A DNA stretch of 64,000 nucleotides from Candidatus Gastranaerophilales bacterium (GCA_944325105.1 CALUYW010000006.1:1-64000); one strand, 5' to 3'. Shown: positions 26,806-32,911, counted from the first letter of the stretch. Translations and numbers: made by a program. The notes: generated by a model from the letters alone, not told the origin.

Positions 26806-27888
26806 ATGAAAAAAATACTTGAGTTTTTTAAAAATACAACCGTAAGAATTGTAAGTATTTTATTGCTTATACTTTTTTTGCTGAGTATAGTTTTATTTTT
26901 TGATAATTACGTAAGACAGATTAAAAAGGGTGTAAGTTTTTATTGGGTTTATAGAGGTGATAAATACTACAGAGAGAATAAAACTCAAAGAGCAATTGAT
27001 TGTTACAAAAGAGCTATCGCATATCATCCTAACCACTACAAAGCTCGCTATAATCTTGCAAATATTTATGTTACCTATGAAGATTATTACTCGGCATTGG
27101 ATGAATATTCAAAAGCGCTTGAAATAAAGCCTGATTTTATGATAGCTCGTATAGACTACGCACTTGTACTATCCGAAGCTACGTTTAATCACGATAGAGC
27201 TATAGAAGAGTATGAAAATGCCATAAGAAATAAGCCTAAGTGGTTTTATATTCCTTTTTTTATAAATAACAGGAAAACATATAAGTATAATTCTGCCATT
27301 GCTTACTATAATATGGGTCTTGCGTGGCGCGCGAAGTCATTGCTTGTCGGGGAAAATAAATTTTCTGCAAGAGAATATTTGTACAATGCTGTTGAAGCCT
27401 ATCAAAAGGCGCTAAAAACCCTTAAGAGTTATGATATTTATTACAATCTTGCTCTTGTAAATCAGCTTTTAAAAAATAATGAAGAAGCAGGTATAAACTA
27501 CTGCAAGGCAATTGAGCTTGCTCCTCTTAACTATGAAGCCCACTATAATCTTGCCATTCTTTTAAGGGACATGAAACTTTACAGGGATTCTCTGGAAGAA
27601 TTTAAAAAAGCGGGTTTGATTTTAGATGTTGACGGTGATAGTGTAAAGACAAGATATATTTATGATGTTCTAAGTGAAGTAACACAAAAAATGGTTCAAC
27701 AGGGAGATTACAAGTACCTTGTCGAACATATTGATGAAAAAGGACATAAGGAAGGCTATAATCAGGCTGAATTAACCTATGTCGGGGGTAAACTTGTTGT
27801 AACCGATGAATTTGACAGAGCTGTTTTAAAAAACTTTAAAACTTGCTCGGCAAAGGCTCACTTTAAAACACTTGATGAGGAAAATTAG
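26806..27888 (+). CDS. Membrane-anchored TPR protein
   Basis: This 360-residue protein has a single N-terminal membrane helix (about 12-33, RIVSILLLILFLLSIVLF) after a short basic start, followed by TPR units (TQRAIDCYKRAIAYHPNHYKA, SALDEYSKALEIKPDFM, and further copies to about 270) and a C-terminal part that is not TPR. The bulk should face the periplasm. It follows the first TPR gene by 15 bases, and its TAG stop shares a base with the GTG start of the cyclase gene, so all three are cotranscribed. It may transmit an envelope signal; no partner is known. Confidence 0.87.
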   Translation: MKKILEFFKNTTVRIVSILLLILFLLSIVLFFDNYVRQIKKGVSFYWVYRGDKYYRENKTQRAIDCYKRAIAYHPNHYKARYNLANIYVTYEDYYSALDEYSKALEIKPDFMIARIDYALVLSEATFNHDRAIEEYENAIRNKPKWFYIPFFINNRKTYKYNSAIAYYNMGLAWRAKSLLVGENKFSAREYLYNAVEAYQKALKTLKSYDIYYNLALVNQLLKNNEEAGINYCKAIELAPLNYEAHYNLAILLRDMKLYRDSLEEFKKAGLILDVDGDSVKTRYIYDVLSEVTQKMVQQGDYKYLVEHIDEKGHKEGYNQAELTYVGGKLVVTDEFDRAVLKNFKTCSAKAHFKTLDEEN

Positions 27889-29273
27889 TGGATTTTAAAA
27901 CTTTCTATAATTTTATGTTTAAACTTACCTGTGCTTTTGAAAAATCAAAGTGCAGGACAGATTTTATTGATAGCCTTGAGAGTGCTTTTTCAAAGATTTT
28001 AAGCGTAGAAAAAATAAAAATATACGTACTTGATGAGTTTTCTTTTGTTCTAAAAGATTTTGAAAAACCATGGGAAAATATGTCTGACGGGGAAGAAAAC
28101 CAAAAAATCCAAAGTGTACTGAATTCCTTTGTGGGCTCAAAAGAAAACGCAAAAATTATTGATAACATAATATATATGCCGATTTATGAAGAGACAAAAA
28201 TCTTAGGTGCTATAAAAATTATCCCCGATGAAATAACGGATGAGCAAAATGAGATTTTTCAAATTGCTCCTCTTGTGCAAAAGCAGATTTCATACGCTGT
28301 GCTAAATTTCAAATCCCGCGAGAAAATGCAGCTGAATACCAAGTTTTATCAAACAATAAGAAATATAGCAAAAATTATTGAAACCCAGTATGAACTAAGC
28401 TATATTTTGCCGATTTTGGGCGAGATGATAGATAGTTTTATATATGAGCATTTAATATATATATTTATAAAAAATAAAAATAAAAAAGAATTTAAGCTTG
28501 TTTGGCCGGCAAATATTAAAGATGTAAAAATATATAATTATTTAGAGCAATTAACTCCAAAGTCGCAGGTAATGCTTGAGCGCGAGGGTAAGGTTGGAAT
28601 TTTTCCTCTTTTAAGCGAGCAAAAGCTTCTGGGGGCTATTGTTGCATATAATCCTTTTGATAAATTAAATGAAAATGAAATAAACTACCTTGATGAAATT
28701 TCAAAACAAGCCTCTATTACTATAGAGCGTGCTTCAGAGTACATGAAAGTGCTAAAAGACGCTACGCTCGATGCTCTAACAGGTCTTAACAACCGTCATC
28801 AATTCGCACTACGTTTAAGGGAAGAAACGGCTTTTGCAAAAAGGCAAAACAAGCCCCTGTGCTGCATTATGACCGATATTGATTTCTTTAAAAAGGTAAA
28901 TGATACATACGGGCATGCGGTGGGTGATTGCGTGCTTAAAAATGTTGCCCGCACCATAAAAAAGGAACTCCGTGAAAATGATATCCCCTCAAGATACGGC
29001 GGAGAAGAGTTTGCGATTCTCCTTCCATACACAACTCTTGATGAGGCTACTCTTGTAGCGCAGAGGTTAAGAAGTGCAATTGAAAAGAAAAAAATAAATA
29101 TCGAAGAATATAATATCGAGGGTGTAAAACAGCTAAGTGTCACAATTTCTGTGGGTGTAAGTTTGTATGATAAAACAATGAAAGACCCCGAGCAGTTATA
29201 TCAAAACGCTGATAAGGCACTGTATGAAGCTAAAGAGGGCGGCAGAAACCAGGTTGTTGTTTTTAAGGCTTAA
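27888..29273 (+). CDS. Diguanylate cyclase (GAF-like + GGDEF)
   Basis: This 461-residue protein makes the second messenger c-di-GMP. The C-terminal GGDEF domain starts at DALTGLNNRHQF (about residue 290), and the active-site motif is GGEEF at 371-375. An inhibitory RxxD site (R362-D365) lies five residues before it, so product feedback is expected. Metal and substrate residues (TDIDFFKKVNDTYGH) are intact. The first 280 residues look like one or two GAF-type sensory domains, without membrane segments. The GTG start overlaps the TPR gene stop by one base; the 3' end overlaps the convergent repressor gene by 4 bases. Confidence 0.9.
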   Translation: MDFKTFYNFMFKLTCAFEKSKCRTDFIDSLESAFSKILSVEKIKIYVLDEFSFVLKDFEKPWENMSDGEENQKIQSVLNSFVGSKENAKIIDNIIYMPIYEETKILGAIKIIPDEITDEQNEIFQIAPLVQKQISYAVLNFKSREKMQLNTKFYQTIRNIAKIIETQYELSYILPILGEMIDSFIYEHLIYIFIKNKNKKEFKLVWPANIKDVKIYNYLEQLTPKSQVMLEREGKVGIFPLLSEQKLLGAIVAYNPFDKLNENEINYLDEISKQASITIERASEYMKVLKDATLDALTGLNNRHQFALRLREETAFAKRQNKPLCCIMTDIDFFKKVNDTYGHAVGDCVLKNVARTIKKELRENDIPSRYGGEEFAILLPYTTLDEATLVAQRLRSAIEKKKINIEEYNIEGVKQLSVTISVGVSLYDKTMKDPEQLYQNADKALYEAKEGGRNQVVVFKA

Positions 29274-29839
29274 TTTTCGTATCTGATAATTGAGTGCAAA
29301 GCTCCCAATATTTCAATTTCATCTGTTTTGAAATCATCTGTAACTATATCTGTATAGTCTTTGTTGTCGGATTTTAAAATAATTGTATTCATATTGTTTA
29401 GAATTCTTTTTATATAAAGAGAATTTTTAAATTTTATAAGAAAGATCTTCCCGTCTTCAATTTTTTCATATTTTTTATTAAATACTGCTATATCCCCTTT
29501 GTTAATGTACGGTGACATAGAATTTGTATTTACGGTTATTGCAAAAGTTGATTCTTCATCCGTACCTTCTTTTTTTGAAAGGCAAATAAAATCGCTTGTC
29601 TGCTGCATTTGGTCTTGGTAGACAGGAACTTTTATGAAATCAAAAGATGTATTGGAATTTAGTTTTACATTAAAATAGGACTCAATTTTTTTTATTTTAT
29701 CTTCGTCAAGGTCAGAATTTTTTGCAAAAAGTTGGGAAACATTTGACCTTGTAGTACTAATAGCCTTTGCTATGTCCCCTTGTGAAATATTTGTATTTTT
29801 CAGTCGGCGGAGTGCGTCTTGGACATCTTTTATATACAT
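29270..29839 (-). CDS. XRE-type repressor with S24/LexA-like peptidase domain
   Basis: This 189-residue protein joins an N-terminal helix-turn-helix (ISQGDIAKAISTTRSNVSQLF, about 18-39) to a LexA/CI-like S24 domain. The Ser-Lys dyad is present as S107 (NTNSMSPYINKGD) and K144 (SLYIKRI). No clear Ala-Gly or Cys-Gly cleavage site is seen in the linker (about 60-80), so self-cleavage is uncertain. It is transcribed from a promoter that overlaps that of the divergent glycine-rich prepilin gene, and two palindromes cover both -10 regions. It is likely an autoregulated repressor of its neighbour. No other phage genes are nearby. Confidence 0.85.
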   Translation of the reverse strand: MYIKDVQDALRRLKNTNISQGDIAKAISTTRSNVSQLFAKNSDLDEDKIKKIESYFNVKLNSNTSFDFIKVPVYQDQMQQTSDFICLSKKEGTDEESTFAITVNTNSMSPYINKGDIAVFNKKYEKIEDGKIFLIKFKNSLYIKRILNNMNTIILKSDNKDYTDIVTDDFKTDEIEILGALHSIIRYEN

Positions 29840-29853
29840 AGGTACTTTCTTAT

Positions 29854-29869
29854 CTTAATATTTATTAAG
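29854..29869. promoter_or_regulatory. Operator-like palindrome 1 (CTTAATA-TT-TATTAAG)
   Basis: This perfect 7-2-7 palindrome covers the -10 box (TATTAA, read leftward at 29860-29855) of the repressor's own promoter. It shares the CTTA/TAAG ends with palindrome 2. It is a likely binding site for the S24 repressor; this is inferred from position. Confidence 0.55.
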
Positions 29870-29883
29870 TTAATACTTGACAA
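29855..29883 (-). promoter_or_regulatory. Leftward promoter of the S24 repressor gene
   Basis: Read leftward, TTGTCA (29883-29878) and TATTAA (29860-29855) are spaced by 17 bases, 16 bases before the repressor ATG. Its -35 box overlaps that of the rightward promoter, so only one polymerase can bind at a time. Confidence 0.6.
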
Positions 29884-29905
29884 AAGTTAAGTTCTAACTT
29901 ATTAT
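29877..29905 (+). promoter_or_regulatory. Rightward promoter of the glycine-rich prepilin gene
   Basis: TTGACA (29877-29882), a 17-base spacer and TATTAT (29900-29905) form a near-perfect vegetative promoter. A palindrome fills the spacer and touches the -10 box. The leader would be about 155 bases long. Confidence 0.68.
29888..29901. promoter_or_regulatory. Operator-like palindrome 2 (TAAGTT-CT-AACTTA)
   Basis: This perfect 6-2-6 palindrome sits between the -35 and -10 boxes of the rightward promoter, where a bound repressor would block RNA polymerase. It is related to palindrome 1 by its TAAG/CTTA ends. Confidence 0.55.
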
Positions 29906-30068
29906 GTAGTTACTAACAAAAAATAGTTAATTTATAGGTAATTGCACTATAGATACGAAATAGCGCGCTTGTTTGTGCGTTATTATTTGCAATTTAATAA
30001 ACATCATAAGGTGTTTAGAATAAATAGTAAATAGAATGTTTATTTTTTTTAATTAATCTGGAGTCTAT

Positions 30069-32357
30069 ATGAAAGGTACGAATTTTTCGCAAGCTTTTAC
30101 GCTTGCAGAACTACTTACTGCTGTCCTTGTGATATCGGTAATTATGGTGGCGCTTGCGCCTGTTATTACAAAAAGAGTTAAGGAGAATATATCTGTTCAA
30201 ACGGATAGGAAAAAGGGTGAAGAAATATGGACAAATCCCGGCGCCTACACTTTTCAAGTGCCTGCAGGAGTAAATATTCTTGAAATTTCAGGCTCGGGAG
30301 GTGGCGGCGGAGGTGCAGGTGCTGCTATGAAAAACTATTCTAAAACATATAACGGCGCTTCAACAAGGACTATCATTGTGCCAAAGGGTGTTTCAACGGT
30401 TACATTTGCTCTTTTGGGTGCCGGTGGCGGTGGCGGAGGTGCAAATGCCTTAGTAAAAAACGACACATGTAAATATCCGCTTATTATTCCTGCTATGGCT
30501 GACAACGGAAGGGATTTGTGTGTTTCTAACGCAGAAGTCTCATCTGGCTATAGGGGTCTTTTCGATGTAGTTGATGTTGGGGTAGATGGTACAAGAAATG
30601 CTACTTGCTGGGTTGCAACCGCAAGCAGAAATACTGCAGCTTACTGTTCTGATGCATCTTGGCCAAACTCCAGTCCTTATTATAAAGGAGGAGGGTGCAA
30701 AAAAATGGTATGCACAAGGGACGCTGTTTCCGGTTTGTGCGGTACTTATACCCCATATGTTGTTGGTGAAGATAGTAAGTACAAAAGTTACAGATTATTT
30801 ACTGTTGCTGAAATAAAAAGACTTTATTCTGAAAGCAATTCTTCAAATCAATACAAATGGATATTTGGGAATGGTCTAGACCTTGGTATGCATATGTATA
30901 AACTTGGTGCTTTAACTGCAGGAAAATATACTGCTGCAAGTGAGACTACAGGATGTTTTGCACCCAATTCATCCGTCTGTAGTCCTTACATGTTGCATTT
31001 ATCTGACGGCATTCTTGCAATAATAGATTCTAATTATTGGGGGCCTAACCCTGATGAGCCGTATTTTGATAAATACGGGCCTGTTTATTACGGGGTAAGT
31101 AATTCCGGTTCTGCTCAAGTGCGTTGCGTGCGCGAGCTTGATAACTGGGTTCCATACTCCGGAGCAGGAGGCGCAGGTGGTGCTAAATTAATAAAGACAA
31201 TCAATGTACAACCCGGAGATACACTCACTTTTGTTATCGGTGCAGGAGGTCTTGGCGGCTCTAAAGGTGGTGGCACAGGCTCTCAAGGAGGAGCAACTTG
31301 TGTTGAGCACAAAAGAAACGGAGTAAGATATACTGATCCTGATAATTCTTTGAATAACGGATATTATTGCGCGTATGGCGGATATGGAGGAAGGGGTGCG
31401 ACAACAAGTGCGAACGGTCAGCCAAATGCAACATTGGCTGCTTGTACTCATGCAGACGGGTGTACAAAGTCTGTAAACGGTTCTGCAGGAACATCCTCAA
31501 CTGGAGGTACGGGTGCAAACGGTGGTACAGGGGCAACTGTTGATACGGGAGAAGATAACATTGTAGGTGTGGGATACAATGGAGAAAATACGGCCTCAGG
31601 AGGCGGAGGCGGTTTTTGTCAAAGAGGAAACAGAGTTCCGTCTAATTGTCAAAAAGGAGGTAATGGTGTTGACGGAAGTTTTACAATAGCTTTTGACCAG
31701 TATGTTGCAGGCGGTGGCGGTGGCGCTGCTGGAGCGGCAGGAACGGATAGTGACGGAAACTATAAACCTATAAAATTGCGTGTCCAAGGTGGTGAAACAA
31801 TAACATTTACAATAGGCTCGGGTGGCCTTGGCGGTCAGTTCTCAACAAATGGGGAAGACGGAGGCGATACTGTTATTGCAACAAAAAACAACCCTGAGGT
31901 TTTTGTTTTTCAAGGCGGTACAGGTGGTAAAACCGGGGTTTTTGACGGTAGTTGTACGTATGACAACATTGGTTGCGCAAAAGGCGGAGAAGGCGGGTAT
32001 GGAGGAAAATATCCAAATTATCTTTTGACCCCGAATTCTTTTACCTACTTAACTCCGACAATTGAATCCGCAGGAAAATCAGGCGGAGCCGACCAGATGG
32101 GATTTCAAGGTGGCTCGGGTGGTACTACGGTTTTAGGTAAATACGGCTCTTGTGGCGGGTTTGAGATAAATGTTGATACAACATGTAGCAAGTATGACGC
32201 AGATGGTAATAGCGGGGAAAAACACAACCCTATTACAAATTTATTTGGCGGCTCGGGCGGGGGCGGTGCCGGAGTTGACGGAAAAAACGGCGGGTCGGGA
32301 GGTTCCGGCGGCCCGGGGTATATAAGAATCAAGTGGGATGAAGCAAATAATGAATGA
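30069..32357 (+). CDS. Large glycine-rich prepilin-like surface protein
   Basis: This 762-residue protein begins like a type IV prepilin: a short leader ends at A9, then FTLAELLTAVLVISVIMVAL with E14 at mature position +5. Ala rather than Gly stands at -1. Glycine-rich beta segments follow (about 77-90, 120-130, 358-530 and on to the end), with two related units, NVQPGDTLTFVIGAGGLGG and RVQGGETITFTIGSGGLGG. Between about 190 and 350 lies a cysteine-containing domain with YRLFTVAEIKRLY and an SAQVRCVREL end, resembling Lcl/FISUMP-type (DUF1566-like) domains. It is likely an exported, pilus-like or adhesive protein. It has a GGAG ribosome binding site and sits under the divergent promoter of the S24 repressor. 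Confidence 0.85.
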   Translation: MKGTNFSQAFTLAELLTAVLVISVIMVALAPVITKRVKENISVQTDRKKGEEIWTNPGAYTFQVPAGVNILEISGSGGGGGGAGAAMKNYSKTYNGASTRTIIVPKGVSTVTFALLGAGGGGGGANALVKNDTCKYPLIIPAMADNGRDLCVSNAEVSSGYRGLFDVVDVGVDGTRNATCWVATASRNTAAYCSDASWPNSSPYYKGGGCKKMVCTRDAVSGLCGTYTPYVVGEDSKYKSYRLFTVAEIKRLYSESNSSNQYKWIFGNGLDLGMHMYKLGALTAGKYTAASETTGCFAPNSSVCSPYMLHLSDGILAIIDSNYWGPNPDEPYFDKYGPVYYGVSNSGSAQVRCVRELDNWVPYSGAGGAGGAKLIKTINVQPGDTLTFVIGAGGLGGSKGGGTGSQGGATCVEHKRNGVRYTDPDNSLNNGYYCAYGGYGGRGATTSANGQPNATLAACTHADGCTKSVNGSAGTSSTGGTGANGGTGATVDTGEDNIVGVGYNGENTASGGGGGFCQRGNRVPSNCQKGGNGVDGSFTIAFDQYVAGGGGGAAGAAGTDSDGNYKPIKLRVQGGETITFTIGSGGLGGQFSTNGEDGGDTVIATKNNPEVFVFQGGTGGKTGVFDGSCTYDNIGCAKGGEGGYGGKYPNYLLTPNSFTYLTPTIESAGKSGGADQMGFQGGSGGTTVLGKYGSCGGFEINVDTTCSKYDADGNSGEKHNPITNLFGGSGGGGAGVDGKNGGSGGSGGPGYIRIKWDEANNE

Positions 32358-32427: not shown

Positions 32428-32450
32428 TTTAAAGACACAATATGTTAATT

Positions 32451-32737
32451 GCAAACGCCAAGCTCGTCGCTTGTCGTTTTCACTCCGGTGTGGTTTTTGC
32501 GCCTGTGCAATCAAAGATTGCTTCTCTCGTTACGCTTGCGCTCCACTCGAAACGGCGCTCATCGACAGTTGCAAACGCCAAGCTCGTCGCTTGTCGTTTT
32601 CACTCCGGTGTGATTTTTGCGCCTGTGCAATCAAAGATTGCTTCTCTCGTTACGCTTGCGCTCCACTCGAAACGGCGCTCATCGACAGTTGCAAACGCCA
32701 AGCTCGTCGCTTGTCGTTTTCACTCCGGTGTGGTTTT
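32451..32737. repeat. 120-bp tandem repeat, 2.4 copies
   Basis: Units start at 32451, 32571 and 32691 with GCAAACGCCAAGCTCGTCGC. Units 1 and 2 are 120 bases each and differ at one position (G/A at unit position 42); unit 3 matches for 47 bases and then diverges. By my count a unit is about 53% G+C, far above the surroundings. Each contains GCAATC-AAA-GATTGC, a small perfect hairpin. Two reading frames stay open only because 120 is a multiple of 3, and no ribosome binding site supports them. This could be a MITE-like element, a structured RNA or a recently expanded intergenic repeat. Confidence 0.85.
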
Positions 32738-32911
32738 ATTAAGTTTTGTTTCAAAAATAATTTATCGGGTGTTAGAAAATTACTTTTTGAATATAATGGT
32801 ATGGCAAAATTAATTAGTACTTTTGGATTATTTTTTTGCATGTAAGGACTTGAAAATATCTTTGTGCTAAGATTTTGTATGTATGGTAGTAAGTATTAAA
32901 GGATTTAAAAA
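32738..32911. other. Rest of the gene-free 32358-32911 stretch
   Basis: The gap between the glycine-rich protein gene and the phosphorylase-like gene holds the terminator at 32393, the tandem repeat, and this AT-rich remainder. I see no gene here. The promoter of the next gene should lie in it, but no -35/-10 pair is convincing. An AAAGGA ribosome binding site precedes the ATG at 32912. Confidence 0.5.

Follow-up and report, generated by a model that had tools for sequence, protein, structure and literature searches.

This locus raises the question of why a CI-like repressor gene should face a gene for a surface protein in a gut bacterium, and whether the DNA between the two genes forms a switch that is peculiar to this pair or is one example of a wider arrangement. 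The window, i.e., the whole stretch of DNA that was analysed, comprises 64,000 nucleotides (bases 1-64000 of contig C6) of a Candidatus Gastranaerophilales genome, G000, which has 1.76 Mb in 28 contigs. The genes at the locus are:

27888-29273, GGDEF gene, whose end is overlapped by the repressor gene
29270..29839, minus strand, S24/CI-like repressor of 189 aa with an N-terminal HTH_3 and a C-terminal Peptidase_S24 domain
30069..32357, plus strand, prepilin-like glycine-rich surface protein of 762 aa with the cleavage motif A|FTLAELL
from 32912, after the prepilin gene, a gene that reads as glycogen-phosphorylase-like from its sequence

The divergent pair that had been described in the first-pass annotation was confirmed at the level of both open reading frames and their domain matches. 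The repressor matched Peptidase_S24 (E 7.3e-18) and HTH_3 (E 1.9e-5), while the facing protein has both the prepilin peptidase motif and a hydrophobic N-terminus, and one of its paralogues (L089) scored above the cut-offs of TIGR02532 and N_methyl. Orthologues of the repressor were 91% (G013), 90% (G003) and 54% (G002) identical to the protein of the window, and the prepilin gene faces the repressor gene in all four genomes that have the pair (G000, G013, G003 and G002). A PDB sequence search with the repressor gave no match, and its AF2 model, which was built on only 4 sequences and had a mean pLDDT of 64.6, was set aside. Downstream of the prepilin gene, a 120-bp unit occurs in three tandem copies (32440-32760); this array is single-copy in G000, and G013 has a similar sequence in front of its phosphorylase gene.

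The region between the two genes contains the following features:

29877..29905, plus strand, rightward promoter TTGACA-17-TATTAT of the prepilin gene, 11/12 match, conserved
29855..29883, minus strand, leftward promoter TTGTCA-17-TATTAA of the repressor gene, 9/12 match and below the rule of the scan, with its -10 inside the invariant O1
29854..29869, candidate operator O1, CTTAATATTTATTAAG, over the leftward -10, invariant in four species
29876..29891, candidate operator O2, CTTGACAAAAGTTAAG (CTTGACATTTATTAAG in G002), over the shared -35 region, 22 bp from O1
29898..29913, candidate operator O3, left half CTTATTAT strong and right half weak, over the rightward -10, 22 bp from O2, the weakest of the three
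29999..30059, plus strand, conserved 5' leader of the prepilin gene with the hairpin AAACATC-ATAA-GGTGTTT (7 bp) and a T8 run

The rightward promoter was the sole 11/12 match that the promoter scan found in 5.5 kb, and the -35 elements of the two promoters overlap, as the first-pass annotation had proposed. The leftward promoter that it named is present in the sequence but is weak and absent from the matches of the scan. Alignment of the intergenic region revealed conservation in the promoter-operator block and in a second block, the leader just before the prepilin start. In the former, the conserved units each span 16 bp and follow the pattern CTT...N10...AAG, which the third only half matches; the three start at 29854, 29876 and 29898 and are thus exactly 22 bp apart over both -10 elements and the common -35. 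Their identity to G002 was 16/16, 12/16 and 11/16 for O1, O2 and O3, compared with 3/6 for each of the 6-bp spacers and 35/77 downstream. Scored against CTTAATAT, the successive half-sites matched at 8, 7, 6, 7, 8 and 3 of 8 positions in G002 and at 8, 7, 5, 6, 7 and 4 of 8 in G000. The palindrome that had been noted over the leftward -10 is O1, which is indeed present and invariant but is not significant in G000 alone (p ~0.2 against base-shuffles of this AT-rich stretch). Similarly, the 22-bp period was not significant in G000 alone (p 0.27); in G002 it was (p 0.0002). The G000 sequence is unconvincing by itself; the case for operators leans on conservation. The second palindrome of the earlier reading, TAAGTT-CT-AACTTA, does not recur in this form in G002; it appears because O2 ends in AAG and O3 starts with CTT, and to take it for an operator of its own was probably a misreading of these two ends. 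Read from the sequence, the locus has candidate operators in tandem between divergent promoters, as in a lambda-type switch. A genome search found no further copy of the promoter DNA in G000 at <=3 mismatches. The leader is 55/61 identical to that of G002 and, among the fetched loci, is confined to the orthologues of the S24 locus. Its fold has a z of -2.06, and an Rfam search matched it to no riboswitch or known RNA. The motif ATACGAA was found in 38 of 110 family leaders and is not enriched in the window.

The divergon with its shared promoter-operator DNA is supported and is conserved in four species, but the first-pass annotation saw in it a single case of what is a genome-wide pattern and missed about 15 similar divergons. 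The prepilin family has ~16 members in G000, i.e., ~15 paralogues of the gene in the window. In 14 of the paralogues, ~70 residues from the mature N-terminus are nearly identical and are followed by a hypervariable Cys-rich domain and then by a Gly-rich C-terminal half; this half is near-identical among the paralogues, which have little in common upstream of the cleavage site. Since the C-terminal halves are so similar, the assembly collapses or breaks inside the genes: ~13 contigs of G000 end within a family gene and several more begin in its last codons (...SGYLRIRWDASEQE). Breaks of this kind were seen in contigs C3, C4, C5, C7, C9-C16, C18, C20, C22 and C23.

A small divergent regulator gene was found at 15 of the 16 family loci of G000, the exception being the locus on C12. 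Eleven of these regulators are HTH_3 proteins, one (on C11) is of the MerR type, and three are small orthologous proteins with no clear Pfam match, the Pfam scan having covered one of the three. In total, G000 has 31 HTH_3 matches, 20 of which do not adjoin the family and 11 of which do; with an estimated ~1,700 genes, chance would place well below one there. Across the genus, 96 of 110 family loci have such a regulator gene, and these genes fall into 14 orthologous groups. All 72 HTH genes that were detected with an HMM lie on the facing strand and point away from the prepilin gene. Applied to ~28 prepilins from other genera, the same HMM detected an upstream HTH gene in just 4 cases; this control may be somewhat insensitive because the HMM was built from G000. 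Some regulator groups have palindromes of their own, such as CTATCACGTTCACGAACGTGATAG in six species and TTACTGGAC..TCCAGTAA in four, and two subgroups of related regulators differ in their palindrome (TCAGGCANATAGCCTGA versus TAATCCGTAGT..ACTACGGATTA). For the remaining groups, the palindrome search gave no significant result.

A given locus can be recognised across species by its orthologous regulator, but the variable domains do not always track the regulators. The variable domain of the G013:C21 locus (regulator cluster 2) is 94% identical to that of G003:C26 (cluster 5), and the one of G013:C22 (cluster 8) is 91% identical to that of G003:C10 (cluster 4). Between the same two genomes, clusters 0 and 7 retain their cassettes; at some loci, the entire coding type differs between species. 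Thus, the regulators stay orthologous in place, while the coding cassettes that they face become homogenised or change locus. The S24 locus is atypical of the family: it is orthologous in all four species (44-69%), and its variable domain is unshuffled and distant from those of the other members. This domain is located as follows:

30429..31172, plus strand, hypervariable Cys-rich domain inside the Gly-rich domain, with a predicted FGE/C-type-lectin-like fold

An AlphaFold (AF2) model of the domain that was computed with 42 family members had a pLDDT of 70-90 over much of its length. VIA-align of this model placed FGE-fold proteins in all of the top four rows (Z 4.7-6.0, the next being 2.8); Foldseek returned nothing significant, and a PDB sequence search with the variable domain returned nothing credible. 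A relative in G014 (L312) matched Lcl_C, presumably the former DUF1566, with an E of 1.2e-5, a match that falls short of the cut-off of that model. DUF1566 was reported to be the most common domain of the targets of diversity-generating retroelements (DGRs) and to have a CLec fold (PMC6642488). The variable domain may thus resemble the FGE/C-type-lectin fold.

Components of such a retroelement were found in G000 itself (L320/L297, G000:C21:1-2263), immediately after the C-terminal end of a family gene that is truncated by the start of the contig:

G000:C21 724-1113, Avd-like gene, DivGenRetAVD E 1.6e-8, a match short of the model cut-off
G000:C21 1085-2263, reverse transcriptase (RT) with LTSQ (IGNLTSQF)

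The RT was present by strong match in eight genomes of the genus. No TR was found in the stretches of G000 that were examined, and contig C21 starts inside the family gene. In G005, the TR differs from the VR of a family gene at 21 of 62 A, 1 of 53 C, 0 of 47 G and 0 of 44 T (non-A 1/144). Six family genes of G014, three of which have private HTH regulators, differ from the template mainly at A; when they were pooled, 40% of A and 12-15% of the other bases differed at codon positions 1 and 2 (p 5.9e-16). The TR and VR of G002 differ at 2 of 49 A and at 0 of the other bases. A DGR mutates the putative binding domain of related family members, with adenine-specific variation in G005, G014 and G002; these results do not extend to the gene in the window. 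Additionally, G002 has a tandem array of ~31 template-like repeats of ~260 bp each (G002:C1:341283-349800; L322 1283-9800), which lie outside any long gene and each encode a different end of the variable domain (LCD..SS..GS..C....SVRCV). The VR of the adjacent gene is 98.6% identical to unit u26; the two differ in a pair of A substitutions and a single deletion. A one-base deletion, GGTTCG to GGTCG, is common to the VR next to the RT of G005 (L313 4674-4879) and that of G002 (L315 5173-5385); it shifts the frame of the surface gene and possibly represents an off-phase state or a recoding site. G000 also has a second RT, on C1 (L298 1279-2274; 331 aa, YVDDIT). It is possibly retron-like and has an XRE gene and a short ORF of repeat-like character (792-980) in its vicinity. 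The 4.6-kb contig G000:C28 (L346) contains an ORF of long DTDV/DTDI repeats.

We propose, with a probability of roughly two in three, that every surface-binder gene is controlled by a self-limiting repressor switch of its own. In this proposal, the S24 repressor is encoded by the host, is a stand-alone CI-like regulator and serves only the gene that it faces. A dimer of the repressor would bind O1, O2 and O3, which, because of their 22-bp spacing, all point to almost the same side of the helix. Occupation of O2, over the common -35, would shut both promoters; at O1, the repressor would close its own -10, and at O3, that of the surface gene. The repressor level would then be self-limited and the surface gene off or low, its release being conceivable through dilution, stochastic fluctuation or another signal. 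The sister loci would follow an equivalent logic with different proteins and operators. As every prepilin-like gene would face its own regulator and promoter, the binders could be expressed singly or in combinations, and a cell may display one or a few binders out of a hypervariable set. Several observations count against this proposal: the right half of O3 is poor, the leftward promoter is weak, and O1 and the 22-bp period are non-significant in G000 alone. The same can be said of the three small regulators with no recognised DNA-binding domain (one scanned), the regulator-less locus G000:C12, the atypical gene of the window and the TR search in the examined stretches of G000, which found none. 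It is also feasible that the regulators of the family are activators instead, the one on C11 being of the MerR type. A broader version of the proposal remains tentative, and we consider it somewhat improbable as a whole: the ~16 loci of one hypervariable, retroelement-diversified pilin-lectin family would each have a non-homologous repressor and operator to themselves, fixed switches would drive exchangeable cassettes, expression would be mutually exclusive or stochastic per cell, and the G002 bank of ~31 template repeats would supply new binding domains.

The first-pass annotation had suggested damage or another cleavage trigger, and in an SOS-type switch, RecA-stimulated self-cleavage of the S24 repressor would free the adhesin upon DNA damage. 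The S24 fold does have a Ser107/Lys144 dyad, invariant in the four orthologues, at the spacing of 37 residues that is known for LexA and UmuD. However, none of the four has an Ala-Gly or Cys-Gly scissile pair at the cleavage position ~35 residues before the Ser, where IKVPVYQDQMQQ / IKIPYYENLKIK is found instead. The only other S24 protein in G000 is LexA, which has an intact scissile site (RAGF) and a palindromic box of its own (TTATGTAC-GATT-GTACATAA), and no LexA box is present at the S24 divergon. Control of the divergon by LexA or the SOS response was rejected on these grounds; the missing scissile pair together with the separate LexA makes a damage trigger unlikely, and we give the SOS-type switch very little credence. 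By analogy with lambda CI, the most likely role of the S24 domain is in contacts within and between dimers, i.e., oligomerisation, rather than self-cleavage.

A phage or mobile element could have left an immunity repressor beside an unrelated surface gene, which would agree with the best PHROG match, a phage transcriptional repressor (E 7.6e-26), and with the presence or absence of the module at a clean site within the genus. In nine other genomes, the GGDEF gene directly adjoins the one for glycogen phosphorylase with no module between them, and the module was therefore gained or lost as a unit, which equally suits the private-switch proposal. A phage or mobile-element origin is nevertheless highly improbable in view of a neighbourhood with no recognised phage genes, as the first-pass annotation had also stated, and of viral contigs among which a search that detects close relatives only found none; the partner gene and the operators are constant in four species, and the sister loci use other kinds of regulators. 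A less remote, though still unlikely, alternative is an ordinary local autoregulator that senses a ligand or host state and switches on this one surface protein, the other pairs being independent and forming no system. Small XRE genes are common, as the 20 HTH_3 matches of G000 (out of 31) away from the family illustrate, and the S24 locus is unshuffled. It is the pairing at 15 of 16 paralogues and at 96 of 110 loci of the genus, in a single facing orientation and against 4 of ~28 other prepilins, that speaks against independent pairs and for private switches.

The findings suggest an individually switchable repertoire of surface binders in a gut Gastranaerophilales, a cyanobacterial side-branch. 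If the private-switch reading is true, targeted hypermutation and cassette exchange are coupled to gene-by-gene transcriptional control in uncultured, widespread gut bacteria. The way in which DGR-diversified surface proteins are selected for expression, an open question, would then become directly testable with a few regulator-operator pairs in vitro and in E. coli.

The closest counterpart of the S24 locus is the CI repressor of lambda and 434, in which divergent promoters enclose three tandem operators, OR1-OR3, at a spacing of roughly two turns of the helix. The S24 locus likewise has an HTH and an S24-type C-terminal domain, three tandem candidate operators and plausible autoregulation; it differs in the absence of a cleavage site and of phage context, in its common -35 and host gene target, and in having no opposing Cro-like gene, the facing gene being the prepilin. 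Neisseria pilE/pilS and Borrelia vlsE combine one expression site with silent stores. The prepilin family shares with them conserved ends, a hypervariable middle and sequence that was moved between copies, but all of its copies are complete genes, each with a promoter and a regulator to itself. Among known DGRs with CLec/DUF1566 (Lcl_C) targets, several VRs per TR and pilin-linked targets were already reported (PMC6642488, PMC8144416). The family resembles these systems in its RT with LTSQ, Avd, adenine-specific TR-to-VR change and putatively CLec-like surface targets, whereas its targets are dispersed prepilins, most of which have a private divergent regulator, and G002 has ~31 tandem template-like repeats. 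The operon-linked regulators of chaperone-usher fimbriae are another case of surface appendage genes with local regulators (reviewed in PMC9820224). The genes of the prepilin family similarly have local regulators, but here near-identical paralogues of a single family are paired with facing regulators from ~14 groups and of several kinds. A search of the open-access literature turned up no report that describes DGRs, or pilin regulators of this private kind, from Gastranaerophilales. Divergent autorepressors, multi-target DGRs and variable pilins are each known singly; private, unrelated regulators that are fixed before exchangeable, retroelement-diversified paralogues appear to be new in the open-access literature that was searched.
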